This document shows positions 2,143 through 30,123 of a stretch of DNA of 64,000 bases, piece by piece. Source of the DNA: Pseudorhodobacter sp. PARRP1. GTDB taxonomy: Bacteria; Pseudomonadota; Alphaproteobacteria; Rhodobacterales; Rhodobacteraceae. The position numbers and the translations under genes are program-made. The notes below the pieces were generated by a model. That model had not been told where the DNA came from. It saw only the letters and a list, made by a program, of their open reading frames with translations, and ran no database searches. Numbering within the stretch: the first letter of the stretch is position 1; each line of letters begins with the position of its first letter. The stretch is taken from positions 372,001-436,000 of the forward strand of contig NKIU01000002.1 of assembly GCA_002256245.1 (NCBI GenBank). The letters run 5' to 3'.

Positions 2143-2174
2143 AATTTCAAGCGAGAAATTTCAAGCTTGAAATT
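2143..2174. promoter_or_regulatory. Tandem overlapping palindromic operators between divergent aminobenzoyl-CoA operons
   Basis: Positions 2157-2174 are a perfect 18-bp palindrome, AATTTCAAGCTTGAAATT. A second copy at 2143-2160 differs at two central bases and shares four bases with the first. A motif identical to the perfect copy occurs before kynureninase at 28239-28256. Size, symmetry and AT content fit a MarR-family dimer site, and the rightward operon encodes a MarR protein (5238-5666). The site sits in the 105-bp gap between the leftward hydratase start and the rightward monooxygenase start, so it can control both. That the MarR protein binds here is inference. Confidence 0.72.
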
Positions 2175-2221: not shown

Positions 2222-4504
2222 ATGAAGGTTCTGTGTTTGGGCGGTGGTCCGGCGGGCTTGTATTTTGCGATCTCGATGAAGCTGCGCGATGCGGGCCATG
2301 AGGTCGTGGTGCTGGAGCGTAACCGGGCCAACGATACCTTTGGCTGGGGCGTGGTGTTGTCGGATGACGCCTTGGGGCGGATGCAGAAGAACGATCCGGT
2401 CAGCACCGATGCCATCCGCAGCCAGTTCGCCTATTGGGACGATATCGCGGTGGTGCACAACGGCGTGCGCACGGTGTCGGGCGGGCATGGTTTTGCGGGC
2501 ATCGGGCGCAAGGCGCTGCTGATCTTGCTGCAAGCGCGGGCGCGCGAATTGGGCGTTGATCTGCGGTTTGAGACCGAGTTCAAATCGGCCGAAGAATACC
2601 GCCGCGAATATGATCTGGTGGTGGCGACTGATGGCCTGAACAGTCTTGTGCGGCGCGAATATGCCGATGTGTTCCAGCCCGATATTGACCTGCGCAAGTG
2701 CAAATTCGTCTGGCTGGGCACCCATGCCAAGTTCGACGATGCCTTCACCTTCATCTTCGAGAAGACCGAATACGGCTGGGTCTGGGCGCATGTCTATCAG
2801 TTTGACAAAGACACCGCGACCTTCATCGTCGAATGCAGCGCCGAGACGTGGGAGCTGTGGGGTTTTGAGGCGATGAGCAAAGAGGAGACGGTGGAAACCT
2901 GCCGCAAGATCTTTGAGCGTCACCTTGGCGGCCATGATCTGATGTCGAACGCGGCGCATTTGCGCGGCTCGGCGGTGTGGATGCAGTTCCCGCGGGTGAT
3001 TTGTGCGCAGTGGTATCACGAGAATGTCGTGCTGATGGGCGATGCCACGGCGACCAGCCATTTCTCGATCGGCTCGGGCACGCGGCTGGCGTTTGATAGC
3101 GCGATTGCTTTGGCCGAGTATCTGCATTCGGAACCGACCATGCAGGCGGCGTTTGAACGCTATCAGGCAGAGCGCCGCGTGGAAGTGTTGCGGTTGCAAT
3201 CTGCGGCGCGCAACTCGCTGGAGTGGTTTGAGGAGGTTGAGCGCTATCTGGATATGCCCGCGCCGCAGTTTGCCTATTCGCTGCTGACCCGCAGCCAACG
3301 GATTTCTCACGAGAATTTGCGGATGCGCGATCCGGCTTGGCTGCGGTCTGCCGAGGATTGGTTCGCGGCGCAATATGGCGGGCAACCGGGGCGCGCGCCG
3401 ATGTTCACGCCGTTCCAGTTGCGCGGCATGACGCTGGAAAACCGCATCGTGGTGTCACCGATGGCGCAGTATCGCGCGGTGGAAGGCACGCCGACCGATT
3501 GGCATTTCGTGCACTACGCCGAACGCGCCAAGGGCGGCGCGGGGCTGGTTTACACGGAAATGACTTGCGTGACCGCCAATGCGCGGATCACCCCCGGCTG
3601 TCCGGGGCTCTATGCGGAAAAGCACATGCTGGGCTGGAAGCGGATCGTTGATTTCATCCACGCCGAGACGCAGGCCAAGGTTTGCTGCCAGATCGGCCAT
3701 GCGGGGCGGAAGGGCTCCACTCAGGTCGGCTGGGCGGATGCCGATGCGCCTTTGGTTTCGGGCAACTGGCCGCTGCTTTCGGCTTCGGCGATCCCGTGGG
3801 CTGCGGGCAATCAGGTGCCAAAGGCGATGGACCGCGATGATATGGACACTGTGCTGCGCCAGTTCATCAAAGCCACCGAAATGGCCGAGGCGGCGGGCTT
3901 CGATATGATCGAATTGCACGCAGCGCATGGCTATCTGATCTCGTCCTTCATCTCGCCGCTGTCGAATCTGCGGGACGATGAATACGGCGGGTCTTTGGAA
4001 AACCGGATGCGCTATCCGCTGGAAGTGTTCCGCGAGATGCGGCGCTATTGGCCGGGGCACAAGCCGATGGCGGTGCGGATTTCTGCCAATGATTGGGCGG
4101 AAGGTGGGGTTACTCCGGCTGAGGCTGTGGTGATCGCCCAGATGTTCGCTGCGGAAGGCGCGGATATTATTGACGTATCGGCGGGTCAGACCAGCACGGA
4201 TGCGAAACCTGTTTATGGGCGGATGTTCCAGACGCCGTTCAGCGACCGGATCAAGAATGAGGCCGGACTTGCTACGATGGCGGTGGGCAATATCACCGAG
4301 GCCGATCAGGTGAATCAGATCTTACTGGCGGGTCGCGCCGATCTGGTGTGTCTGGCGCGGGCGCATCTGTCTGATCCTTACTGGACTTTGCATCAGTCGG
4401 TGGCTTTGGGGGATGCAGAAACTGCATGGCCGAAGCCATATCTTGCGGGGCGTGATCAGGCGCGGCGCTTGGCGCAAAAGCAGGAAGGCGTGATCCGGGT
4501 ATGA
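2222..4504 (+). CDS. abmA: 2-aminobenzoyl-CoA monooxygenase/reductase (FAD monooxygenase fused to old-yellow-enzyme reductase)
   Basis: This 760-residue fusion hydroxylates and then reduces the aromatic ring of 2-aminobenzoyl-CoA, as established for the Azoarcus evansii enzyme. Residues about 1-380 are a class-A flavin monooxygenase: MKVLCLGGGPAGLYFAI is the FAD Rossmann motif and LMGDATATSHFSIGSGT the second FAD motif. Residues about 394-760 are an old-yellow-enzyme/NADH:flavin oxidoreductase barrel: FTPFQLRGMTLENRIVVSPM, then IELHAAHGYLISSFISPL with the substrate His pair and EYGGSLENRMRYPLE. The ATG at 2222 was chosen because GGAGGG lies at 2210-2215. An in-frame GTG at 2186 lacks this spacing. 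Some databases name the family salicylyl-CoA 5-hydroxylase/oxidoreductase. The aminobenzoate-CoA ligase nearby favours the aminobenzoyl-CoA reading. Confidence 0.93.
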   Translation: MKVLCLGGGPAGLYFAISMKLRDAGHEVVVLERNRANDTFGWGVVLSDDALGRMQKNDPVSTDAIRSQFAYWDDIAVVHNGVRTVSGGHGFAGIGRKALLILLQARARELGVDLRFETEFKSAEEYRREYDLVVATDGLNSLVRREYADVFQPDIDLRKCKFVWLGTHAKFDDAFTFIFEKTEYGWVWAHVYQFDKDTATFIVECSAETWELWGFEAMSKEETVETCRKIFERHLGGHDLMSNAAHLRGSAVWMQFPRVICAQWYHENVVLMGDATATSHFSIGSGTRLAFDSAIALAEYLHSEPTMQAAFERYQAERRVEVLRLQSAARNSLEWFEEVERYLDMPAPQFAYSLLTRSQRISHENLRMRDPAWLRSAEDWFAAQYGGQPGRAPMFTPFQLRGMTLENRIVVSPMAQYRAVEGTPTDWHFVHYAERAKGGAGLVYTEMTCVTANARITPGCPGLYAEKHMLGWKRIVDFIHAETQAKVCCQIGHAGRKGSTQVGWADADAPLVSGNWPLLSASAIPWAAGNQVPKAMDRDDMDTVLRQFIKATEMAEAAGFDMIELHAAHGYLISSFISPLSNLRDDEYGGSLENRMRYPLEVFREMRRYWPGHKPMAVRISANDWAEGGVTPAEAVVIAQMFAAEGADIIDVSAGQTSTDAKPVYGRMFQTPFSDRIKNEAGLATMAVGNITEADQVNQILLAGRADLVCLARAHLSDPYWTLHQSVALGDAETAWPKPYLAGRDQARRLAQKQEGVIRV

Positions 4505-5241
4505 CTCTGGCTGGCAAACGCGTTCTGATCACCGGCGGCGGCTCGGGTGCGGGGGAGAACCTTGCCCTCGGCTTTGCGCAGGCGGGGGCCGAGGTGGTGA
4601 TCGCCGGACGTCGTCTGGCGGCGTTGCAGGGGGTGGTGGATCGCGCGCCGGGGATACGCGCGGTGCAGGCGGATGTGACGGATGAGGCCTCGGTTCGGGC
4701 GATGTTTGCCGACGCCGGGCCGTGTGATGTGGTGATCGCCAACGCGGGGGCGGCGGATTCGACGGTGATGGCGAAGACCAGCCTTGCGCAATGGAACGCG
4801 ATGATCGCGGTCAATCTGACGGGGGTGTTTTTGACCCTGCGCGACGGGTTGAACCAGATGCCGGGCTGGGGGCGGTTGATCTCGGTCGCGTCCACGGCGG
4901 GGTTGAAGGGCTATGCCAAGGTAGCACCCTATGCGGCGGCCAAACATGGCGTGATCGGGCTAACCCGTTCTTTGGCCTTGGAAATCGCCAAGCGCCCGGT
5001 GACGGTGAATGCGATTTGCCCAGGGTTTTTGGACACGCCGATGACGGACCATTCGGTTGAGGTGATTGCCGAGAAGACCGGGAAATCGCTGACCGAGGCG
5101 CGGGCGGTTTTGGCGGCGATGAACCCGCAGGGGCGGCTGATCGCGCCATCAGAAGTCACCGCGATGGCGCTGTTTTTGTGCGGGCCGGGGTCGGAAGGCG
5201 TCAACGGGCAGGCATTGGTGATTGCGGGGGGCGAATTGTGA
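4501..5241 (+). CDS. Short-chain dehydrogenase/reductase (SDR) family oxidoreductase
   Basis: This 246-residue classical SDR has the cofactor motif LITGGGSGAGENLALGFA at the N-terminus, NAGAA after beta-4, a catalytic serine region (LISVASTAGLKGYAKVAPY), then YAAAKHG as the YxxxK catalytic pair. Both catalytic positions are present, so it should be an active NAD(P)H-dependent alcohol/ketone oxidoreductase. Its start overlaps the monooxygenase/reductase stop by 4 bp (ATGA), and its stop overlaps the MarR start. It probably acts on the alicyclic oxo or hydroxy CoA intermediate made by the fused enzyme, but the substrate is inferred from position only. Confidence 0.88.
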   Translation: MTLAGKRVLITGGGSGAGENLALGFAQAGAEVVIAGRRLAALQGVVDRAPGIRAVQADVTDEASVRAMFADAGPCDVVIANAGAADSTVMAKTSLAQWNAMIAVNLTGVFLTLRDGLNQMPGWGRLISVASTAGLKGYAKVAPYAAAKHGVIGLTRSLALEIAKRPVTVNAICPGFLDTPMTDHSVEVIAEKTGKSLTEARAVLAAMNPQGRLIAPSEVTAMALFLCGPGSEGVNGQALVIAGGEL

Positions 5242-5666
5242 GCGAGCTTTCCAAGCGGCGGCTGAAGATGTGGATCAGGATGCTGGGGGTGACGCGATCC
5301 TCGGAAAGCCATCTGCGCGAGTTTTTGCGGGTGAAGCACGACACCACCTTGCCGCGTTTTGACGTGCTGGCGGCGCTGTATCGCAGGCGGGATGGCGTGA
5401 CGATGTCTGAGTTGAGCCGGATGCTGCTGGTGTCAAACGGTAATGCGACGGCGGTGGTGGACCGGCTGGAGAAAGACGGTCTGGTGCGGCGCACGCAATC
5501 TGAACAAGACCGCCGCACGGTGTTTGTGGCGCTGACCACTGAAGGTCTGGCGCAGTTTGAGGGGCTGGCGGCGGATCACGAACGCGCGGTGGACCGGCTG
5601 TTTGGCGGGCTGTCCGAGGCTGATCTGGACGCGCTGACCGAGATTTTGAAAAGGATGGGCAAATGA
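5238..5666 (+). CDS. MarR-family transcriptional regulator of the aminobenzoyl-CoA cluster
   Basis: This 142-residue winged-helix regulator contains [20 protein letters not shown] followed by [20 protein letters not shown] (helix-turn-helix and recognition helix) and the wing [14 protein letters not shown]. This is the standard MarR layout, with dimerisation helices at both ends. The GTG at 5238 was chosen because it gives a normal family N-terminus and overlaps the SDR stop by 4 bp. An upstream in-frame start at 5178 would lie deep in the SDR gene. Regulators of this kind usually repress aromatic-CoA operons and release DNA on binding an acyl-CoA or aromatic ligand. Likely targets are the palindromes at 2143-2174 and 28239-28256 (inference). 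Confidence 0.9.
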
Positions 5667-6472
5667 AACTGGCAGATCGCAAGCCCGTGCATTTTCTGTG
5701 GGACGTTTCCGACCGGGTGGCGGTGTTGCGGCTGAACCGGCCGGATCGCAAGAACCCTTTGACGTTTGAGAGCTACGCCGAAATGCGCGATCTGTTCCGT
5801 GATCTGGCCTATGCGACGGATGTCGATGTGGTGGTGCTGGCGTCGAACGGTGGCAATTTCTGCTCGGGCGGCGATGTGCATGACATCATCGGGCCGCTGA
5901 TTGGGAAGCCGATGAAAGACTTGCTGGCGTTCACCCGGATGACCGGCGATCTGGTTAAGGCGATGATTTCCTGTGGAAAACCGGTGATCGCGGCAGTGGA
6001 TGGCGTGGCCGTTGGGGCGGGGGCGATCTTGGCGATGGCGGCTGATTTGCGGCTGGCGACGCCAGAGGCGAAATGCGCGTTCCTGTTCACGCGGGTGGGC
6101 CTTGCGGGCTGCGACATGGGGGCCTGTGCGATGCTGCCGCGCATCATCGGGCAGGGGCGGGCGGCGGAATTGCTTTACACCGGTCGGGTGATGACGGCTG
6201 CCGAGGGCGAGCGTTGGGGCTTTTGGAACGCTTTGCATGACAGTGCCGATCTGGAAGCCGAGGCGATGGTTCTGGCGCGCCGCTTGGCTGCGGGACCGAC
6301 TTTTGCGCATGGCGTGACCAAGACTCAGTTGTTGCAGGAATGGGACATGGGGCTGCTGGCCGCGATTGAGGCGGAAGCGCAGGCGCAGGCGATCTGCATG
6401 CAGACGCAGGATTTTGAGCGGGCGTATCGGGCGTTTGTGGCGAAGGAAAAGCCCGTGTTTGCCGGGGATTGA
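5663..6472 (+). CDS. Enoyl-CoA hydratase family protein
   Basis: This 269-residue crotonase-superfamily protein starts at an ATG overlapping the MarR stop by 4 bp. [20 protein letters not shown] marks the first strand-helix unit. [17 protein letters not shown] is the oxyanion-hole loop with the CoA-binding G-G-D pattern, and [20 protein letters not shown] is the second oxyanion segment. The helix ending [13 protein letters not shown] is typical of the fold. It differs clearly from the hydratase at 1358-2116, so the two probably serve successive steps. It resembles the hydratase usually co-located with aminobenzoyl-CoA monooxygenase/reductase. Whether it hydrates, isomerises or opens a ring cannot be settled from sequence. 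Confidence 0.88.
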
Positions 6473-6532: not shown

Positions 6533-7669
6533 ATGGCGGATGAGAGTTTTCTAGGCTGGCCGTTTTTTGAGGACCGTCACCGGGCTTTGGCGGCGGCTTT
6601 GGAGGATTGGGCCGGGGCAAATCTGCCGGTGGATCATGGCGATGTTGATGCGGCTTGCCGGGGGCTGGTGGCGCGCCTTGGTGCGGGCGGGTGGTTGCAA
6701 CATTCGGGTGCTGCGCAGGGCGAAAGGCTGGATGTGCGCAGCTTGTGTCTGATCCGCGAGACTTTGGCGCGCCATGACGGGCTGGCCGATTTTTCCTTTG
6801 CGATGCAGGGGCTTGGCATGGGGGCGGTGTCGCTGTTCGGCAGTGACGTGCAGCGCGAATGGCTGGCGCGGACGCGGGCGGGCGAGGCGATTTCGGGCTT
6901 TGCGCTGACGGAACCGGCCTCGGGGTCGGATGTGGCGGCGACGGCGACTTCGGCTGTGCGGGGCCAAGGTGGTTGGGTGCTGAACGGCGAGAAGACCTAT
7001 ATCTCGAACGGCGGGATTGCCGATGTTTATGTGATCATCGCGCGCACTGGCGAGGCGCCGGGGGCCAAGGGCTTGTCGGCGTTTTTGCTGCCTGCCGATA
7101 CGCCCGGCCTGCGGGTGGTGGAGCGGATTGAGGTGATTGCGCCGCATCCCTTGGCGCATCTGGCGTTGCAGGATGTGATTTTGCCCGAAGGCGCGCTGAT
7201 CGGGAAGGCCGGGGACGGCTTTAAGATCGCGATGTCGGTGCTGGATGTGTTCCGCTCGACCGTGGGGGCTGCGGCTTTGGGCTTTGCGCGCAGGGCGCTG
7301 GATGAGGCCTTGGCGCGGGTGAAAGCGCGGCGGATACAAGGGGCGGCGCTGGCGGAATTGCAGATGGTGCAGGGGCATATCGCCGATATGGCGTTGCAGA
7401 TTGATGCGAGCGCCCTGCTGATTTACCGCGCCGCTTGGGTCAAGGATCAGGGGGCTGCACGGGTCAGCCGTGAGGCCGCGATGGCCAAGCTTTATGCCAC
7501 CGAGGCTGCGCAAAAGGTGATCGATATGGCGGTGCAACTGCATGGCGGTGACGGCGTGCGGCATGGCGTGGTGGTTGAGGCGCTTTACCGCGAAATCAGG
7601 GCCTTACGCATCTATGAAGGCGCATCTGATGTGCAGCGGGTGGTGATTGCGCGCAGCATTCTGGGGTAG
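6533..7669 (+). CDS. Acyl-CoA dehydrogenase family protein
   Basis: This 378-residue FAD flavoenzyme has the family layout: N-terminal helices, then [20 protein letters not shown] (around residue 120, FAD/substrate loop), [20 protein letters not shown], and the C-terminal four-helix domain with [16 protein letters not shown] and the end motif [22 protein letters not shown]. The C-terminal pattern is that of active FAD-binding acyl-CoA dehydrogenases. It probably dehydrogenates an alicyclic or dicarboxylyl-CoA intermediate in the same route. It lies 60 bp after the hydratase, with a repeat filling the gap, and continues the same operon direction. Confidence 0.92.
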
Positions 7670-7704: not shown

Positions 7705-8154
7705 ATGGCAGATCTTGACGGCGGTATCACCGCAAATGGCGCGGCCTATCATGGCCGGATGCTGAACATTCTGGGCCAGCGCTATTTCCCCAAAGCCTCG
7801 TGCGACAGCAGTTACAGCTTTGAGACCAACAGCGAAGCCGGGCAGTTCGTGCCGGTGCACGTCCATCACACGCAGGACGAGTTCATTCTGGTGCAGGAAG
7901 GCCAGTTGGAGCTGAAACTTGACGGCAAATGGCAGACCGCCCGCGCCGGTGATCTGGTGCGGATGCCGCGCGGGGTGCCGCATGGCTACTTCAACAAATC
8001 CGACAAGCCGTGCCGCGCGTTGTTCTGGGTCTCGCCTGCCGGCAAGCTGGAGGCTTTGTTCGAGAAGCTGCACAACATGACCGATATTCCCGAAGTGGTG
8101 GCGACCTCGGCGGCGCATGATGTGGATTTTCTGCCGCCTGAGGCCAATGACTGA
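7705..8154 (+). CDS. Cupin-domain protein of the aminobenzoyl-CoA operon
   Basis: This 149-residue single-domain cupin starts at an ATG preceded by GGAGGA. Cupin motif 1 is visible as PVHVHHTQDEFILVQEGQLEL (metal-ligand His/His/Glu pattern) and motif 2 as RMPRGVPHGYFNKSD with the last His. Metal binding is therefore plausible. Cupins of this kind can be small dioxygenases, isomerases or ligand sensors, and the sequence does not say which. It overlaps the thioesterase start by one base. A 3-hydroxyanthranilate dioxygenase is unlikely because only the general cupin motifs match. Confidence 0.82.
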   Translation: MADLDGGITANGAAYHGRMLNILGQRYFPKASCDSSYSFETNSEAGQFVPVHVHHTQDEFILVQEGQLELKLDGKWQTARAGDLVRMPRGVPHGYFNKSDKPCRALFWVSPAGKLEALFEKLHNMTDIPEVVATSAAHDVDFLPPEAND

Positions 8155-8564
8155 TGAGCTACCAGCGCCTTACCCAGATCGAGTTCAACCACTGCGACCC
8201 GGCGGGGATCGTGTTTTATCCGCGCTATTTCGAGATGACAAACTCGGTCGTTGAGAACTTTTTCAACGATGTGGTGGGGCGCAGTTTTGCCTCGATGCAC
8301 CGCGATGCCAACAACGGCGTGCCGACGGTTTCGCTGACTGCGGAATTCGTCGCGCCTTCGCGGCTGGGCGATAAGGTGCTGTTTTCGCTGAAGATCGAAA
8401 AGCTGGGGCGATCGTCGGTCAGCATCCGCATTGAGGGCCATATGGGGGCAGAGTTGCGGCTGCGCGTGGCGCTGGTGCTCGTGTGGATTGAGGGCATGAA
8501 ATCGGCCGCCTGGCCGGATGCGATGCGGGCGCGCCTGCAGGCTTATATGGAGGACGCGGCATGA
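8154..8564 (+). CDS. Acyl-CoA thioesterase, 4-hydroxybenzoyl-CoA thioesterase-like hotdog fold
   Basis: This 136-residue hotdog-fold protein carries QIEFNHCDPAGIVFYPRYFE near the N-terminus. The Asp-Pro-Ala-Gly block with tyrosine is the active-site signature of 4-hydroxybenzoyl-CoA-type thioesterases, with the Asp as the catalytic acid/nucleophile. The length is typical. It starts within the cupin stop and ends 4 bp into the next gene. In aromatic-CoA clusters such enzymes are thought to release CoA from dead-end thioesters, protecting the CoA pool. That role here is inferred from context. Confidence 0.88.
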   Translation: MSYQRLTQIEFNHCDPAGIVFYPRYFEMTNSVVENFFNDVVGRSFASMHRDANNGVPTVSLTAEFVAPSRLGDKVLFSLKIEKLGRSSVSIRIEGHMGAELRLRVALVLVWIEGMKSAAWPDAMRARLQAYMEDAA

Positions 8565-8965
8565 GCCATGAGATTTTGCACCCGAAAAACTGGAAGGCCG
8601 CGCGGGGCTATGCCAATGGCATGGCGGCCTCGGGGCGGATGGTTTTTACCGGCGGGCTGATCGGCTGGAATGCGGATCAGGAATTTGAAACCGATGATTT
8701 CGTGGGGCAAGTTGAAGCCGCGTTGCAAGGGATCGTCGCGGTGCTGGACTGTGCCGGGGCCAAGCCGGAACATCTGGTGCGGCTGACATGGTATGTCACC
8801 GACAAGCAGGAATACCTCAGCAACCTCAAGGGGTTGGGCGCGGTGTATAAAGCGGTGATCGGGCGGCACTATCCGGCGATGGCACTGGTGCAGGTGGTGG
8901 CTTTGGTCGAGGACCGCGCCAAGGTCGAGATTGAGGCAACGGCTGTCATACCGGAGGGGATGTGA
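8561..8965 (+). CDS. RidA-family (YjgF/YER057c/UK114) enamine/imine deaminase-like protein
   Basis: This 134-residue RidA-like protein contains NGMAASGRMVFTGGLIGW near the start, VAVLDCAGAKPEHLVRLTWYVTD in the middle and YPAMALVQVVALVEDRAKVEIEATAVIP at the end. The final block is the family signature, although the canonical catalytic Arg of RidA (usually in an R-x-A/V block) is replaced by YPAMALVQV, so deaminase activity is uncertain. In this operon it would fit hydrolysis of the enamine or imine expected when the amino group leaves the reduced 2-aminobenzoyl-CoA ring. It overlaps its neighbours by 4 bp on both sides. Confidence 0.85.
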   Translation: MSHEILHPKNWKAARGYANGMAASGRMVFTGGLIGWNADQEFETDDFVGQVEAALQGIVAVLDCAGAKPEHLVRLTWYVTDKQEYLSNLKGLGAVYKAVIGRHYPAMALVQVVALVEDRAKVEIEATAVIPEGM

Positions 8966-10584
8966 TGTTGGGACCAACTGGACATAGCGACAGCTTCACC
9001 CGCGACCGTCTGCCGCCTGCCGATCAGCAACCGGATTTCCTGCTGGATGGCTTTGACTACCCCGAATACATCAATGCGGCGGTCGAATTGACCGACCGGA
9101 TGGTGGAAAAGGGCTTTGGCGACCATACTGCGCTGATCGGCAATGGGCGGCAGCGGACGTATAAAGAGCTGACCGATTGGTCGAACCGCATCGCGCATGT
9201 GTTGGTGGAAGATTACGGCGTAAAGCCCGGTAATCGTGTGCTGATCCGCTCGGCCAACAACCCGGCGATGGTGGCCTGCTGGTTGGCTGCGACCAAGGCG
9301 GGCGCGGTGGTGGTCAACACCATGCCGATGCTGCGCGCGGGCGAGTTGGGCCAGATTGTTGATAAGGCCGAGATCGCTTTGGCTTTGTGCGATACGCGGT
9401 TGATGGAGGAGTTGGTCGCTTGCGCCAAAACCTCGGGGTTTTTGAAAACCGTGGTGGGGTTTGACGGCACGGCGAACCATGATGCCGAACTTGACCGCGC
9501 GGCTTTGGGCAAATCGGTGCGGTTTGTCGCGCCCAAGGTGGGGCGCGATGATGTGGCGCTGATCGGCTTTACCAGCGGCACCACTGGCGAGCCGAAGGGG
9601 GCGATGGCGTTTCACCGCGATATTCTGATCATCGCGGACGGCTATGCGAAAGAAGTGCTGAACGTGGTGCCCGAGGATGTGTTCGTAGGCTCGCCGCCGC
9701 TGGCGTTTACCTTTGGATTGGGCGGTTTGGCGGTGTTTCCGCTGCGGTTTGGCGCGGCGGCGGCGCTGTTGGAGCAGGCGACGCCGGGCAATATGATCGA
9801 GTTGATCCAGACCCATAAGGCGACGGTGTGTTTCACCGCACCGACCGCCTACCGCGTGATGCTGAAGGCGATGGCGGAGGGGGCGGATTTGTCGTCGTTG
9901 CGCGCGGCTGTGTCGGCGGGGGAGACCTTGCCTGCGCCGGTTTATGAGGAATGGATGGCGAAAACCGGCAAGCCGATGCTGGATGGCATTGGGGCGACCG
10001 AAATGCTGCATATCTTCCTGACCAACCGGTTTGAAGACCATCGCCCCGGTTGCACCGGGCGGCCCGTGACCGGCTATCAGGCGCGGATTGTGGGGCCGGA
10101 TATGGCAGAGTTGCCGCGCGGCGAGGTTGGGCGGTTGGCGGTGCGGGGGCCGACTGGCTGCCGCTATATGGCGGACGACCGGCAGGCGAAATATGTGCGC
10201 GACGGCTGGAATCTGACCGGGGATAGTTTCTGGCAGGATGACGAGGGGCGCTTTCACTTTGCGGCGCGCTCGGATGATATGATCATCTCGGCGGGCTATA
10301 ACATCGCCGGGCCAGAGGTGGAGGCGGCGCTGCTGTCGCACGCTTGCGTGCTGGAATGTGCGGTGATCGGGCGGGCGGACGAGGATCGCGGCCAGATTGT
10401 CGAGGCGCATGTGGTGCTCGCGCAGGGCGTGGTTGGCGATGCGGTGATGACCAAGGCGCTGCAAGACCATGTGAAAAGCGTGATCGCGCCCTACAAATAT
10501 CCGCGCAAGGTGCATTTTGTGGCGGCTTTGCCCAAGACGCAAACCGGCAAGATCCAACGCTTCCGGCTGCGCGACGGGGGCTGA
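8962..10584 (+). CDS. abmG: 2-aminobenzoate-CoA ligase (benzoate-CoA ligase family)
   Basis: This 540-residue ATP-dependent acyl-adenylate/thioester-forming ligase has the P-loop-like A3 motif GFTSGTTGEPKGAM (around residue 200), the A5 segment DGIGATEMLHIF, the A7/A8 region DGWNLTGDSFWQDDEGRFHF with RSDDMIISAGYNI, and the A10 lysine in LPKTQTGKIQRFRLR. It groups by motif style with benzoate- and 2-aminobenzoate-CoA ligases. It supplies the CoA thioester for the fused enzyme at 2222-4504 and is the last gene of the rightward operon. A terminator-like hairpin follows at 10665-10683. Specificity for anthranilate rather than benzoate is inferred from the cluster. Confidence 0.88.
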   Translation: MMLGPTGHSDSFTRDRLPPADQQPDFLLDGFDYPEYINAAVELTDRMVEKGFGDHTALIGNGRQRTYKELTDWSNRIAHVLVEDYGVKPGNRVLIRSANNPAMVACWLAATKAGAVVVNTMPMLRAGELGQIVDKAEIALALCDTRLMEELVACAKTSGFLKTVVGFDGTANHDAELDRAALGKSVRFVAPKVGRDDVALIGFTSGTTGEPKGAMAFHRDILIIADGYAKEVLNVVPEDVFVGSPPLAFTFGLGGLAVFPLRFGAAAALLEQATPGNMIELIQTHKATVCFTAPTAYRVMLKAMAEGADLSSLRAAVSAGETLPAPVYEEWMAKTGKPMLDGIGATEMLHIFLTNRFEDHRPGCTGRPVTGYQARIVGPDMAELPRGEVGRLAVRGPTGCRYMADDRQAKYVRDGWNLTGDSFWQDDEGRFHFAARSDDMIISAGYNIAGPEVEAALLSHACVLECAVIGRADEDRGQIVEAHVVLAQGVVGDAVMTKALQDHVKSVIAPYKYPRKVHFVAALPKTQTGKIQRFRLRDGG

Positions 10585-23724: not shown

Positions 23725-23767
23725 CGATTTTCGCGCGAAAATCGTGCCGGAATTCGCGCGAATTCCG
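23725..23767. repeat. Twin 20-bp perfect palindromes
   Basis: CGATTTTCGCGCGAAAATCG at 23725-23744 and CGGAATTCGCGCGAATTCCG at 23748-23767 are both perfect palindromes sharing the core TTCGCGCGAA and spaced three bases apart. They lie between a small gene and the sugar isomerase gene. They may be a terminator, a regulatory site for the isomerase or a palindromic repeat. Confidence 0.75.
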
Positions 23768-25869: not shown

Positions 25870-26742
25870 TCACAGCGTGGTGCGCAGATGCCACAATTCA
25901 GGGAACAGTTCGACATCCAGCATCCGGCGCAAGTAGCTGACACCACCCGTGCCACCCGTGCCGCGTTTCAGGCCGATCACGCGTTCCACCGTGGTCACGT
26001 GGTTGAAACGCCAGCGGCGGAAGTAATCCTCGAAATCCACCAGCTTTTCGGCCAACTCATAGGCCTGCCAGTATTGCGTCGGATCGCGATACACCATCTC
26101 CCACACCCGCTGCACGCCTTCGTGCACGCTCCAAGGTTGGCGCAGATCGCGGGTCAGCACGTCTTGCGGCACCGGCAACCCTGCGCGGGCCAGATGGCGC
26201 AAGGCCTCGTCATAAAGGCTGGGGCGCGCGAGTTCGGCCTCCAGCAGGGCGGTCAGGTCGGCGCGGTGGGCGTGCGGTTTCAGCATCGCCAGATTGCGGT
26301 TGCCGACCGCATATTCGATCAGCCGGTATTGCCAGGACTGAAACCCCGAGGATTGCCCCAAGCCCTCGCGGAAGGTGGTGTAATCCGACGGCGTCATGGT
26401 GCGCAACACGTCCCAGGCGTTGTTCAACTGCTCAAATATCCGGCTGATGCGGGCCAGCATCTTGAACGCTTCGGGCGCGCGATCATCGGCGATGGCGTGG
26501 CGCGCGGCATTCAACTCGTGCAGCGCCAGCTTCATCCACAATTCGGATGTCTGGTGCTGGATGATGAACAGCATCTCGTCATGCGCCGGGGTAAGCTGCC
26601 GTTGCGCCGAGAGAATCTGGTCGATGTGCAGATAGTCGCCATAAGACATCCGCCCGTCGAACGACATCTGCGCGCCCTCAGAGGCGGGGTTGTAGGGGGT
26701 CGCCGCGTGCATCGGGCAGCCGGATTTTGCATCATTGGTCAT
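25870..26742 (-). CDS. kynA: Tryptophan 2,3-dioxygenase
   Basis: This 290-residue heme dioxygenase opens the indole ring of L-tryptophan to N-formylkynurenine. Diagnostic segments are [36 protein letters not shown] with the active-site His/Glu, and [20 protein letters not shown] before the terminal PELWHLRT. Length and C-terminus are typical. It lies downstream of kynureninase in the same direction, with a 237-bp gap that contains an inverted repeat, so read-through is possible but not proven. The Cys-rich N-terminus ([14 protein letters not shown]) is seen in related proteins. No kynurenine formamidase is seen in the window. Confidence 0.97.
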
Positions 26743-26893
26743 TCATACATTCCTGTCATGTAGGGGTTTCCCCCGGATGGGTTCAGGCGATGGAATGGCT
26801 GCGGCAGTTCAGAACCGAGATCGCGCCGATGGTGCGCCATTGGGCGATCCATCCGGCTGGGCGACAAAGTGCGGCGTTTGTGGCCTTCACATT

Positions 26894-26975
26894 GGTCAAA
26901 ATACTCCCGCCGGAGGCTTCGGCAGAGGCTGAGGGAGCCTCCGGCGGGAGTATTTTTGCCAAGATGAAGCGCACA
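26894..26975. repeat. Dispersed inverted repeat (21-bp arms) between kynA and kynU
   Basis: Perfect arms of 21 bp, AAAATACTCCCGCCGGAGGCT at 26898-26918 and its complement at 26936-26956, enclose a 17-bp loop. The sequence continues with GCCAAGATGAAG. Related elements occur at 42640-42715 and 63810-63893. The hairpin may dampen read-through from kynU to kynA. Confidence 0.85.
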
Positions 26976-26979
26976 GGCA

Positions 26980-28173
26980 TCAGGTGACTTTCGCGCGGGT
27001 TTTGTACTCGGGGCGGTCCCAGAGGTTGTTTTGCATGATGTCGGCGATGATCTGGATCGCCTTGTCCACGTCGGCGGCGTCGATGAACAGCGGCGTGAAG
27101 CCGCAGCGGATGATGTCGGGCGCGCGGAAATCGCCGATCACGCCGCGGGCGATCATTGCCTGCATGATGGCATAGCCTTCGGGGTGGCGGAACGACACCT
27201 GGCTGCCGCGTTCCGCGTGGTCGCGGGGCGTGGCGAGGGTCAGGGTGGGGCAGGCGGCCTCGATCCCGGCGATGTATTGGTCTTGCAGCGCCAGCGAGGC
27301 TTTGCGCAGCGCGGCCATATCGACCCCGTCCCAGATATCGAGCGAGGCTTCCAACGCCGCCAGTTGCAGGATCGGCGGCGTGCCCACCCGCATCCGCTCG
27401 GCCCCGGAGGCGGGGCGGTAATCGAGATCAAACGCGAAGGGGGCCGCGTGGCCTTGCCAGCCGGACAGTGCCGGGAGGGCGGTATCGGCGTGGCGGGGGG
27501 CCACGTAAATGAAGGCCGGACCGCCGGGGCCGGAGTTGAGGTATTTATAGGTGCAGCCCACCGCGAAATCGGCGTGGCATTTGGCCAGTTCCACCTGAAA
27601 TGCGCCTGCCGAATGCGCCAGATCCCAGATCGTGAGTGCGCCGTGCTGATGCGCGCGCGCCGTGATTGCCGCCATGTCGTGCCGACGCCCGGTGCGGTAA
27701 TCGACCTCGGTGATCATCGTCACCGCCACCGTGTCGTCGATCGCGTCCAGCACATCCTCGGGCGCCACAGTTTTCAGCGTGTAGCCCTGCCCAAGCGTGC
27801 GGCACAGGCCTTCGGCCATGTAAAGATCAGACGGGAAGTTGCCGGTGTCGGACAGGATGACTTTGCGTGTCGGGTTCATCTCAAGGCACGACGCGAGCGC
27901 CTGATAGACCTTGATCGACAGCGTGTCGCCCATCACCACATGGCCCGCTTCCGCCCCGATCAGCCGCGCGATGCGGTCGCCCACGCGCATCGGCTTGTCC
28001 ATCCACCCGGCTTTGTTCCAGGCGGTGATCAGCATGTCGCCCCATTCTGCCGTCACGGCTTGCGCCACACGTGCGGCGGTGGCACGCGGCAGCGGGCCCA
28101 GCGAGTTTCCGTCCAGATAGATCATGCCCTCGGGCAGATGGAACTGGGCTTTGGTGGCGGCGAAATCGGTCAT
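26980..28173 (-). CDS. kynU: Kynureninase
   Basis: This 397-residue PLP enzyme cleaves L-kynurenine to anthranilate and alanine. MTDFAATKAQFHLPEGMIYL then DGNSLGPLPRAT is the typical N-terminus, IWDLAHSAGAFQVEL carries the cofactor Asp, and GCTYKYLNSGPGGPAFIYV carries the PLP lysine. HPEGYAIMQAMIARGVIGDFR near the end is conserved. The ATG at 28173 is set by AAGGAG eight bases upstream. An 18-bp palindrome identical to the aminobenzoyl-CoA operator lies at 28239-28256, 66 bp upstream, which links anthranilate production to its CoA-dependent degradation. Confidence 0.97.
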   Translation of the reverse strand: MTDFAATKAQFHLPEGMIYLDGNSLGPLPRATAARVAQAVTAEWGDMLITAWNKAGWMDKPMRVGDRIARLIGAEAGHVVMGDTLSIKVYQALASCLEMNPTRKVILSDTGNFPSDLYMAEGLCRTLGQGYTLKTVAPEDVLDAIDDTVAVTMITEVDYRTGRRHDMAAITARAHQHGALTIWDLAHSAGAFQVELAKCHADFAVGCTYKYLNSGPGGPAFIYVAPRHADTALPALSGWQGHAAPFAFDLDYRPASGAERMRVGTPPILQLAALEASLDIWDGVDMAALRKASLALQDQYIAGIEAACPTLTLATPRDHAERGSQVSFRHPEGYAIMQAMIARGVIGDFRAPDIIRCGFTPLFIDAADVDKAIQIIADIMQNNLWDRPEYKTRAKVT

Positions 28174-28238
28174 TGCGGGCTCCTTCAGGTGCAGCGTGGC
28201 ACGCAGCTTTGGTGGCAGCAATAGGCAGAATGGCGTAA

Positions 28239-28256
28239 AATTTCAAGCTTGAAATT
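28239..28256. promoter_or_regulatory. Kynureninase operator, identical to the aminobenzoyl-CoA cluster palindrome
   Basis: AATTTCAAGCTTGAAATT is an 18-bp perfect palindrome identical to that at 2157-2174, with identity extending one base to the left and four to the right. It lies 66 bp upstream of the kynU ATG and about 290 bp upstream of pntA. It probably binds the MarR regulator at 5238-5666 (inference). Confidence 0.75.
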
Positions 28257-28545
28257 GTTTCGAATCGGCGCGGCGGTCATGGGCCGCGTCAATGTTTGCG
28301 CTATCAGGGGCTTGCGGACATAGGCTATTGAAATCACGCTGAGATTCCGATGCGGGAAATTCGTCTGTCTGGGCGATTTGGCGCGGAATATTCGACCCGG
28401 CGCGGGGCGTGTATCTGTAGAAGCCGACAGGTTTTTCTGCAAAAGCGGCAAACAAACGTTGAACTCTGGCCCTGCAATGCTAAGCCTCTGGGGGATTTGG
28501 CGGTCACGGTTGCTCCTTGAACCGCGCAAACGACGGGGGAACACA

Positions 28546-30123
28546 GTGAAAATAGGTGCGTTGAGCGAGATTTTTGCGGGCGAGAACCGGGTGGCGATGA
28601 CCCCCGATTCCGCGCTGCAACTGGTGAAACTGGGGCATGTTTGCGTCATTCAGGCCGGGGCGGGGGCGAAGGCGGGGTTCTCGGACGCGCTTTACGCCAA
28701 GGCGGGGGTCGAGGTTCTGCCAGATGCGGCGGCGGTGATCGCGGCGGCGGATGTGCTGGTGAAGGTGCGCGGGCCGGAAGTGGCCGAGGCGCAGGCTTTG
28801 CGTGAAGGCCAGACGCTGATCAGCTTCTTCTGGCCGGCGCAGAACCCCGAATTGCTGGAGATTGTGAAATCTCGCGGTGCGACCGTGGTGGCGATGGATA
28901 TGGTGCCGCGGATCAGCCGCGCGCAGAAGATGGACGCTTTGTCGTCGATGGCCAATATCGCAGGCTACCGCGCGGTGATCGAGGCGGGCAGCAACTTTGG
29001 CCGCTTCTTCACCGGCCAAGTCACGGCGGCGGGCAAGGTGCCTCCGGCCAAGGTGTTGGTGGTTGGTGCGGGTGTGGCGGGGCTTGCGGCGATTGGCACG
29101 TCGGTGTCGTTGGGCGCGATTGTGCATGCGTTTGATGTGCGCCCCGAAGTGGCCGAGCAGATCGAATCGATGGGCGCGTCTTTCGTGTTTCTGGAATTTG
29201 ACGCCAGCGAGTTGCCGGATGGCGCGGCCACGGGCGGCTATGCGGCTCCCTCCAGCCCTGCGTTTGCGGCCAAGCAGTTGGCGAAATTCCGCGAACTTGC
29301 GCCCGAGATGGACATCGTGATCACCACGGCGCTGATCCCCGGACGCCCCGCGCCCAAGCTGTGGACCGCCGAGATGGTGGCTGCGATGAAGCCCGGCTCG
29401 GTCGTGGTGGACCTTGCGGCCGAGCGTGGCGGCAACTGCGATCTCACCGTGCCGGATCAGAAGATTGTCAGCGACAACGGTGTGACCATTGTTGGCTACA
29501 CCGATTTCCCCAGCCGGATGGCCGCACAGGCAAGCACACTTTATTCCACCAATATCAGGCACATGCTGACCGATCTTACACCAAAGAAAGACGGTGTGAT
29601 TGATCACAACATGGGCGATGACGTGATCCGGGGCGCGACTGTTGCCAAGGCTCACGAGATCACCTTCCCGCCGCCGCCGCCAAAAATCGCGGCGATTGCG
29701 GTGCAAAAGCCGAAGGAAAAGGTCAAGGAACTGACGCCCGAGGAAAAACGCGCGGCAGAGACGGCGGCGTTCAAGGCGCAGACCCGCAATCAGGTGGGCA
29801 TGCTGGTGGTCGGCGGCGGTTTGATCCTGCTTGCGGGGCTTTATGCCCCCGCCAGCTTCATGTCGCACTTCATCGTGTTTGTGCTGTCGGTCTATGTCGG
29901 CGTGCAGGTGATCTGGAACGTCAGCCACAGCCTGCACACGCCCTTGATGGCGGTGACCAACGCAATCTCGTCGATCATCATTCTGGGGGCGTTGATGCAG
30001 ATCGGCTCGGGCAACTGGCTGGTGGTGATCTTGGGCGCGCTTTCGGTGTTCATGGCAGGGATCAATATTTTCGGTGGCTTCATGGTGACACGGCGGATGC
30101 TTGCCATGTTCCAGAAGTCGTAA
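28546..30123 (+). CDS. pntA: NAD(P) transhydrogenase subunit alpha
   Basis: This 525-residue subunit couples hydride transfer from NADH to NADP with proton movement. It has domain I (residues 1-380, with [15 protein letters not shown] and the dinucleotide loop [34 protein letters not shown] near the site) and C-terminal transmembrane helices ([20 protein letters not shown] onwards) for subunit IIa. This is the fused alpha form. The GTG at 28546 was chosen because it gives the family start [15 protein letters not shown]. In-frame upstream residues from 28378 do not match the family. It is translated with pntB, 13 bp later. Confidence 0.95.

Follow-up and report, generated by a model that had tools for sequence, protein, structure and literature searches.

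Why does a perfect 18-bp palindrome in front of a kynureninase gene recur, base for base, in front of a distant operon for aryl-CoA breakdown, and could one regulator act at both places? In the 64,000-nucleotide stretch of DNA analysed here (the window), AATTTCAAGCTTGAAATT is found at 28239-28256, before the minus-strand kynureninase gene kynU (26980-28173; TIGR01814, 298 bits versus a cut-off of 246.4), and is palindromic at 18 of 18 positions. A second perfect copy lies 26.1 kb away at 2157-2174, before the plus-strand gene for ABM, a flavoprotein of the 2-aminobenzoyl-CoA monooxygenase/reductase type (2222-4504), and an overlapping copy with 2 mismatches (2143-2160) is offset by 14 bp from the perfect ABM copy. 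An earlier note on this DNA had pointed out the palindrome and its identical second copy, and both are exact; with the kynU start at 28173, the 66 bp given for the distance to the gene is also correct. Both perfect copies are predicted operators, and similar sites precede kynU in other genera. Our reading, which we regard as very likely, is that the palindrome is the operator of a MarR-family repressor encoded in the ABM operon, which would switch kynU and ABM together. Computation shows the sites, that this genome has them nowhere else, that they recur in front of both genes, that they go with the presence of ABM and that at ABM they overlap the -35 box; MarR binding, repression and the identity of the inducer are what we infer from sequence.

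The two copies could also have nothing to do with regulation, having arisen by chance or belonging to a dispersed repeat. The earlier note had called a chance match improbable, and this is borne out: allowing up to 3 mismatches, the window holds 3 matches, whereas 100 dinucleotide shuffles average 0.02. The genome-wide scan that it had suggested, run at this looser threshold on the 4.35 Mb genome (28 contigs), returns the same three sites only, all before ABM or kynU, and the reversed-pattern control, run with the same limit, has no match in any contig. With three genomic sites, the operator is common to several pathway promoters and rare elsewhere, and the palindrome is not widespread in unrelated places. 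The identity claimed to run on into the flanks is real but short, amounting to 23 contiguous bases with the flank included. The two genes run in opposite directions, kynU on the minus and ABM on the plus strand, which puts the shared GTTT flank upstream of one and downstream of the other; because of these opposite sides relative to the genes we gave the flank no meaning, and rejected a duplication read from flank identity. The extension of the match to 23 bp, together with the exact 14-bp core in 8 of 239 other genomes of the class, is what a chance or repeat origin has in its favour. Set against the three sites in 4.35 Mb, the enrichment before ABM and kynU and the conservation as a -35 box at ABM (both below), such an origin is hardly credible, and the sequence evidence speaks strongly against it.

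The operon behind the second copy fits an aryl-CoA route. ABM itself is 97% identical to the ABM of Cypionkella aquatica, which places the genome in the Rhodobacteraceae and very probably in Cypionkella. It scores 1257 bits, over the cut-off, with NF006101; it matches PF01494 and PF00724, i.e., a fused flavin monooxygenase and old-yellow-enzyme reductase. The name of the NF006101 model, "bifunctional salicylyl-CoA 5-hydroxylase/oxidoreductase", says salicylyl-CoA for the substrate, whereas 7 of 43 long loci have kynU and tryptophan dioxygenase placed together with ABM, which argues for 2-aminobenzoyl-CoA. On the same strand follow genes for a short-chain dehydrogenase (4501-5241), the MarR-family regulator that we propose as the repressor (5238-5666; its GTG start overlaps the preceding stop codon), an enoyl-CoA hydratase family protein (5663-6472; NF006107, 468 bits, over the cut-off), an acyl-CoA dehydrogenase (6533-7669; no model over its cut-off), a cupin protein (7705-8154; PF07883), a thioesterase-family protein (8154-8564; PF03061), a RidA-family protein (8561-8965; PF01042) and an aryl-CoA ligase, the proposed 2-aminobenzoate-CoA ligase (8962-10584; PF00501). 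The best model for the ligase is TIGR02262 (benzoate-CoA ligase family), at 359.3 bits, below its cut-off of 375.25. On the other side, the tandem palindromes at 2143-2174 separate the ABM operon from a minus-strand pair, an enoyl-CoA hydratase (1358-2116) divergent from the ABM operator region and a 3-hydroxyacyl-CoA dehydrogenase (249-1358), neither with a model over its cut-off.

To see how far the arrangement extends, one can look across the family, where 49 of 248 genomes hold the site at up to 2 mismatches, while the reversed control matches in a single one. Forty of the 68 family sites precede ABM or kynU by at most 250 bp, and the share varies with the quality of the match: 8 of 8 perfect sites, 10 of 13 with one mismatch and 22 of 47 with two. 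Another 5 precede RidA or MarR pathway genes, and 23 of the 68 are elsewhere. A scoring matrix was built from 38 sites in 34 loci, which had been chosen as adjoining ABM or kynU; since the sites were hand-picked, held-out counts were made as well. Among the family ABM loci, 75 of 79 score at least 10 within 200 bp upstream of ABM, and with the matrix genomes removed 48 of 54 held-out loci score at least 12. At this latter threshold the background holds 9 matches in 643,993 bp, whereas the promoters of ABM and kynU, 13,750 bp in all, hold 49. The 79 ABM starts scored come from 85 ABM-bearing genomes, with G055, G069, G139, G142, G233 and G245 left out.

Among the sites elsewhere, no pathway gene was seen beside the two with one mismatch, L026 (next to a P450 gene and the ribosomal L19 gene) and L042 (an amidohydrolase), nor beside the annotated two-mismatch sites L025, L029, L044 and L049; the surroundings of the remaining unrelated two-mismatch sites were compared with the window's genes alone. 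One two-mismatch site, L031, is inside an ABM cluster, between MarR and hydratase. As a separate observation, L046 and L047 (2001-2018), from two genomes without ABM, have the common sequence AATTTCATGCATGAAATT, which is perhaps the operator of a different regulator.

How would a protein bound to the palindrome affect ABM transcription? In the window, a TTGAAA within the operator (2167-2172, plus strand) is followed after a 17 bp spacer by the -10-like CAGGCT at 2190-2195. The same arrangement recurs: the pattern [TC]AnnCT occurs 16-17 bp after the operator TTGAAA in 43 of 75 ABM promoters, and none of the other spacers between 11 and 24 gives more than 1 of 75. The pattern was picked after viewing the alignment, the sharp spacing being no part of how it was built. 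From this spacing, the ABM -35 box is very probably formed by one of the palindrome's halves, so that a bound protein must hinder polymerase, and an operator over the ABM -35 box is very probably a repressor layout. A second overlapping copy, in tandem at 14-15 bp, is present in 33 of 79 ABM promoters.

The protein most likely to bind the palindrome is the MarR of the operon. It has a MarR winged-helix domain (PF01047, 58.2 bits versus a cut-off of 24.6) and a predicted structure with the MarR fold over the whole chain (pLDDT 93.1). The predicted operator, a perfect inverted repeat at a promoter, is where a MarR dimer would bind. The operon's MarR is the sole close homologue found in the genome, the next two being 33% and 32% identical. 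Among 129 MarR proteins from ABM loci, the stretch V65-S66-N67-G68-N69-x-T71, located in the recognition helix, is kept at 96-100% per position, x aside. A MarR match is found in 41 of 43 long ABM loci, and the two without (G102 and G033) are also without the site; over all family ABM loci the figure is 69 of 79, many of these having been fetched too short to show MarR. We take this MarR as the binder because of its position in the operon, its conservation and the two long loci that lack both MarR and site. In a scan of named genomes (80 loci), 48 of the 49 loci with ABM at least 62% identical and a MarR match score at least 12 upstream of ABM; for those with ABM this similar and no MarR match it is 7 of 8, 6 of the 8 having a short flank. 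Below 62% identity, the site is found in 5 of 23 loci (3 of 13 with MarR, 2 of 10 without), and five Flavobacteriaceae loci have neither site nor MarR match. Site and MarR occur together also in Halomonas, where matrix scores are weaker, Saccharospirillum, Maritalea and Phyllobacterium.

Not every locus fits, and the sites might instead be bound by a regulator encoded elsewhere, with the operon's MarR doing something else. L248 and L266, the two MarR-less named loci whose flank is not short, have the site and no MarR within the fetched flank; two of the four family ABM loci without the site (G063 and G105) do have MarR and no detectable site; and the two remoter homologues in the window's genome offer other candidates. 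This alternative is nevertheless improbable in our view, given the 41 of 43 long loci with MarR, the absence of the site from the other two, and the fact that MarR accompanies the site away from ABM too (L013 and L055, see below).

At kynU in the window, a putative -35 box TTGAAA lies inside the operator (28241-28246, minus strand), named as such from sequence and by analogy with the ABM promoters, and the candidate -10 box TATTGC at 28223-28218 is weak, with a 17-bp spacer from TTGAAA. A generic sigma-70 scan of 26700-28600 does not have the proposed kynU promoter in its output, and the poor -10 candidate does not settle the exact, still putative, kynU promoter in the window. In other genomes the kynU sites fall into two classes, ending either 35-68 nt before the start codon (the window's at 65) or 12-26 nt before it; a site 42 nt before the start codon in G075 was counted with the close class. 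At 12-26 nt, where most close-class sites lie, overlap with a -35 box is not expected, and the layout looks more like a roadblock. Beyond the operator, pntA (NAD(P) transhydrogenase alpha; 28546-30123) is divergent to kynU, and a PntA match occurs near kynU in many fetched family loci.

The presence of the palindrome at kynU follows that of the lower pathway. Kynureninase is found in 205 of the 248 family genomes and ABM in 85. A matrix score of at least 12 within 250 bp upstream of kynU is reached by 27 of 61 kynU promoters from genomes with ABM versus 1 of 30 from genomes without (p = 2.7e-5), and for promoters held out of the matrix by 13 of 40 versus 1 of 30. The 61 promoters represent 60 genomes, G178 having two kynU copies, and the 30 were taken from the highest KynU identities, with G210 added, rather than drawn at random. 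The fragmentary genome G166 was counted as ABM-plus instead of ABM-minus on account of the partial ABM in L018 (with its first assignment, 27 of 60 versus 1 of 31), and G245 was dropped, with only 56 bp upstream, though a site of 14.5 was seen. Twenty-six of 86 ABM-bearing genomes fall outside the count, being beyond the matches listed, without a kynU match, too short or with kynU seen only in a cluster locus. The sole ABM-minus positive, G220, is a genome 75% complete.

These same counts raise the alternative that the kynU site is real but merely tunes kynU, as a remnant or weak secondary site, with the main control exerted otherwise. More than half of the ABM-plus kynU promoters (34 of 61) stay below 12, three of them scoring 5 to 12. 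Eight of the 34 belong to kynU genes preceded by tryptophan dioxygenase or another gene of the pathway, for which no operator of their own is expected; for the others, no explanation was found. The site also looks lost or decayed in close relatives: in G155 (ABM present, KynU 88% identical), the homologous kynU stretch looks decayed, and G247, the other genome of the window's genus (kynU 89% identity, no ABM), has the degenerate CACTTCCAGCTTGAACAT near the matching place. Yet the window's kynU site is as strong as its ABM site, perfect over all 18 positions, and strong kynU sites recur in many genera, so that we think a mere tuning role rather unlikely. A 200-residue kynU tree places all 12 far sites opposite all 20 close ones; it is weakly supported, with 10 starred of 89 branches, and an independent-pairs test confined to the starred ones gave no significance (median p 0.5 over 5 pairs). 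For both reasons we claim no count of independent gains, and the starred branches alone cannot prove the kynU-ABM link to be independent of ancestry.

How much of tryptophan breakdown would such a regulon cover? The proposal in the earlier note, that one MarR protein switches upper and lower pathways together, stands insofar as kynU and the ABM operon have a common operator; in the window's genome, only kynU of the upper pathway has the site, so that a jointly switched route from tryptophan through kynurenine is an overstatement there. The tryptophan 2,3-dioxygenase gene (25870-26742, minus strand; TIGR03036, 421.9 bits, over the cut-off) lies 237 bp downstream of kynU, past a long inverted repeat, and has no operator of its own in the whole-genome scan at up to 3 mismatches. 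The repeat (26879-26975; 47-nt arms, 81% complementary, 3-nt loop) is a possible terminator and may uncouple kynU from the dioxygenase; a terminator pattern scan of 26700-28600 gives it no statistical support, with 1 found versus 1.8 expected from shuffles. For the formamidase, the KynB model has a best score of 24.8 bits versus a cut-off of 223, with no clear gene in the genome. Two PF04199 cyclase genes are present elsewhere in the genome. A remote MarR homologue (33%) and a PF04199 cyclase gene lie some 2 kb apart on contig C10 of the same genome (L306/L308), and this region is maybe another aromatic cluster.

Other genomes arrange these genes differently. In 7 of the 43 long loci (genomes G086, G213, G082, G228, G144, G093 and G169), kynU and tryptophan dioxygenase are both in the ABM cluster and on ABM's strand, and in 6 more of the 43 the dioxygenase alone is there. 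Some displaced pathway genes bear a site of their own, as in the RidA-thioesterase pair of L009, the MarR-ligase pair of L013 and the cupin gene of L253 and L257. In L055, from a genome without ABM, a site precedes a MarR gene with dioxygenase and kynU, and in L266 (Roseivivax) two tandem sites lie just upstream of dioxygenase-kynU. Clustered forms on the one hand and displaced genes with a site on the other are the pattern expected of one regulator for the whole route, if the sites are indeed its operators. The split regulon postulated for the window is partly supported: the pairing of sites recurs across genera, tracks the lower pathway and is mirrored by the clustering of kynU and dioxygenase with ABM. 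In L052 (1987-3596; G137), tandem operators precede RidA, followed by a gentisate or 5-aminosalicylate 1,2-dioxygenase-like gene; this branch is a possible further part of the regulon.

A mechanism can be sketched from these data. A MarR dimer on TTTCAAGCTTGAAA would cover the ABM -35 box, and very probably that of kynU too, blocking both promoters. A compound of the pathway would then free the DNA, most likely 2-aminobenzoyl-CoA (anthraniloyl-CoA) and less likely anthranilate or kynurenine, so that the production of anthranilate by kynureninase and its breakdown by the operon would be induced together from loci 26 kb apart. Free aromatic acids are ligands of many MarR proteins, and the signal of KynR in Pseudomonas is kynurenine; both facts lend weight to a variant in which the regulon is the same and MarR answers anthranilate or kynurenine rather than a CoA thioester. 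We hold this variant to be a serious possibility, if somewhat short of probable. The choice of 2-aminobenzoyl-CoA as the most likely inducer is drawn from the likeness to CouR. The available text on CouR of Rhodococcus jostii, the closest functional analogue by layout, describes a MarR repressor whose boxes overlap the -35 element and which is released by the p-coumaroyl-CoA thioester, not the free acid (PMC4737184).

CouR resembles the predicted regulon in several ways. It represses genes for an aryl-CoA route; its inverted repeat lies across the -35 box, as at ABM, one operator region serves divergent promoters, and the regulon takes in several promoters (PMC4737184). The pathway and the operator sequence are different, however, and the CouR entry 6c28 is a weak sequence match to the window's MarR (E 3.5e-5). 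The arginines by which CouR contacts DNA are Arg36 and Arg38. Another MarR structure, 3boq from Silicibacter pomeroyi, is at most 45% identical in its aligned part to any of the 129 ABM-locus MarR proteins.

Other regulators resemble parts of the proposed system. To our knowledge, KynR does not control the CoA-dependent anthranilate pathway. By the title of a paper among the references of PMC4938989, KynR of Pseudomonas aeruginosa controls the kynurenine pathway, and the accessible part of that article mentions a KynR-positive transcriptional loop; KynR is of the Lrp/AsnC type, however, whereas the regulator in the window's operon is a MarR protein. IadR and IacR are MarR regulators of auxin catabolism, the iad route ending at anthranilate (PMC9613470); they differ in regulating indole-3-acetic acid loci, and the available portion of that paper names no kynureninase and no ABM operon among their targets. 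The clusters of Azoarcus evansii and Arthrobacter Rue61a share the chemistry of CoA ligase and monooxygenase/reductase (PMC3534580). The Rue61a plasmid differs, as far as the accessible text goes, in having PaaX-related regulators in that gene number range, and the word MarR is absent from the main text of the paper (PMC3534580).

In the open-licence literature searched, we found no description of a MarR regulon joining kynureninase with a 2-aminobenzoyl-CoA operon, and no regulator of the aerobic CoA-dependent anthranilate pathway and kynureninase in Rhodobacteraceae. A curation paper, in its available part, omitted tryptophan degradation via the ABM enzyme for lack of knowledge (PMC9007349). 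Each component of the predicted regulon is of known kind: it is a MarR repressor regulon for an aryl-CoA route that, unusually, extends to the breakdown of tryptophan. What the present analysis proposes for Rhodobacteraceae is a regulator, together with its operator, of kynureninase and of the aerobic CoA-dependent route for anthranilate.

A wider reading, to which we give even chances, would be a feed-forward tryptophan regulon of Alpha- and Gammaproteobacteria in which one MarR protein would respond to anthraniloyl-CoA by lifting the repression of its use and, via kynU, of its supply, with membership rebuilt gene by gene. Displaced kynU, dioxygenase-kynU, RidA-thioesterase, cupin or ligase genes could then gain the operator, and kynU would have gained it at two positions in two lineages and would lose it where the lower pathway is missing. 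The gains and losses make a ready set for studying how regulons track genes that leave an operon, and the MarR protein is a possible sensor for anthraniloyl-CoA or anthranilate. Finally, the window contains two perfect 20-bp palindromes of another sequence, CGATTTTCGCGCGAAAATCG and CGGAATTCGCGCGAATTCCG, which lie three bases apart at 23725-23767.
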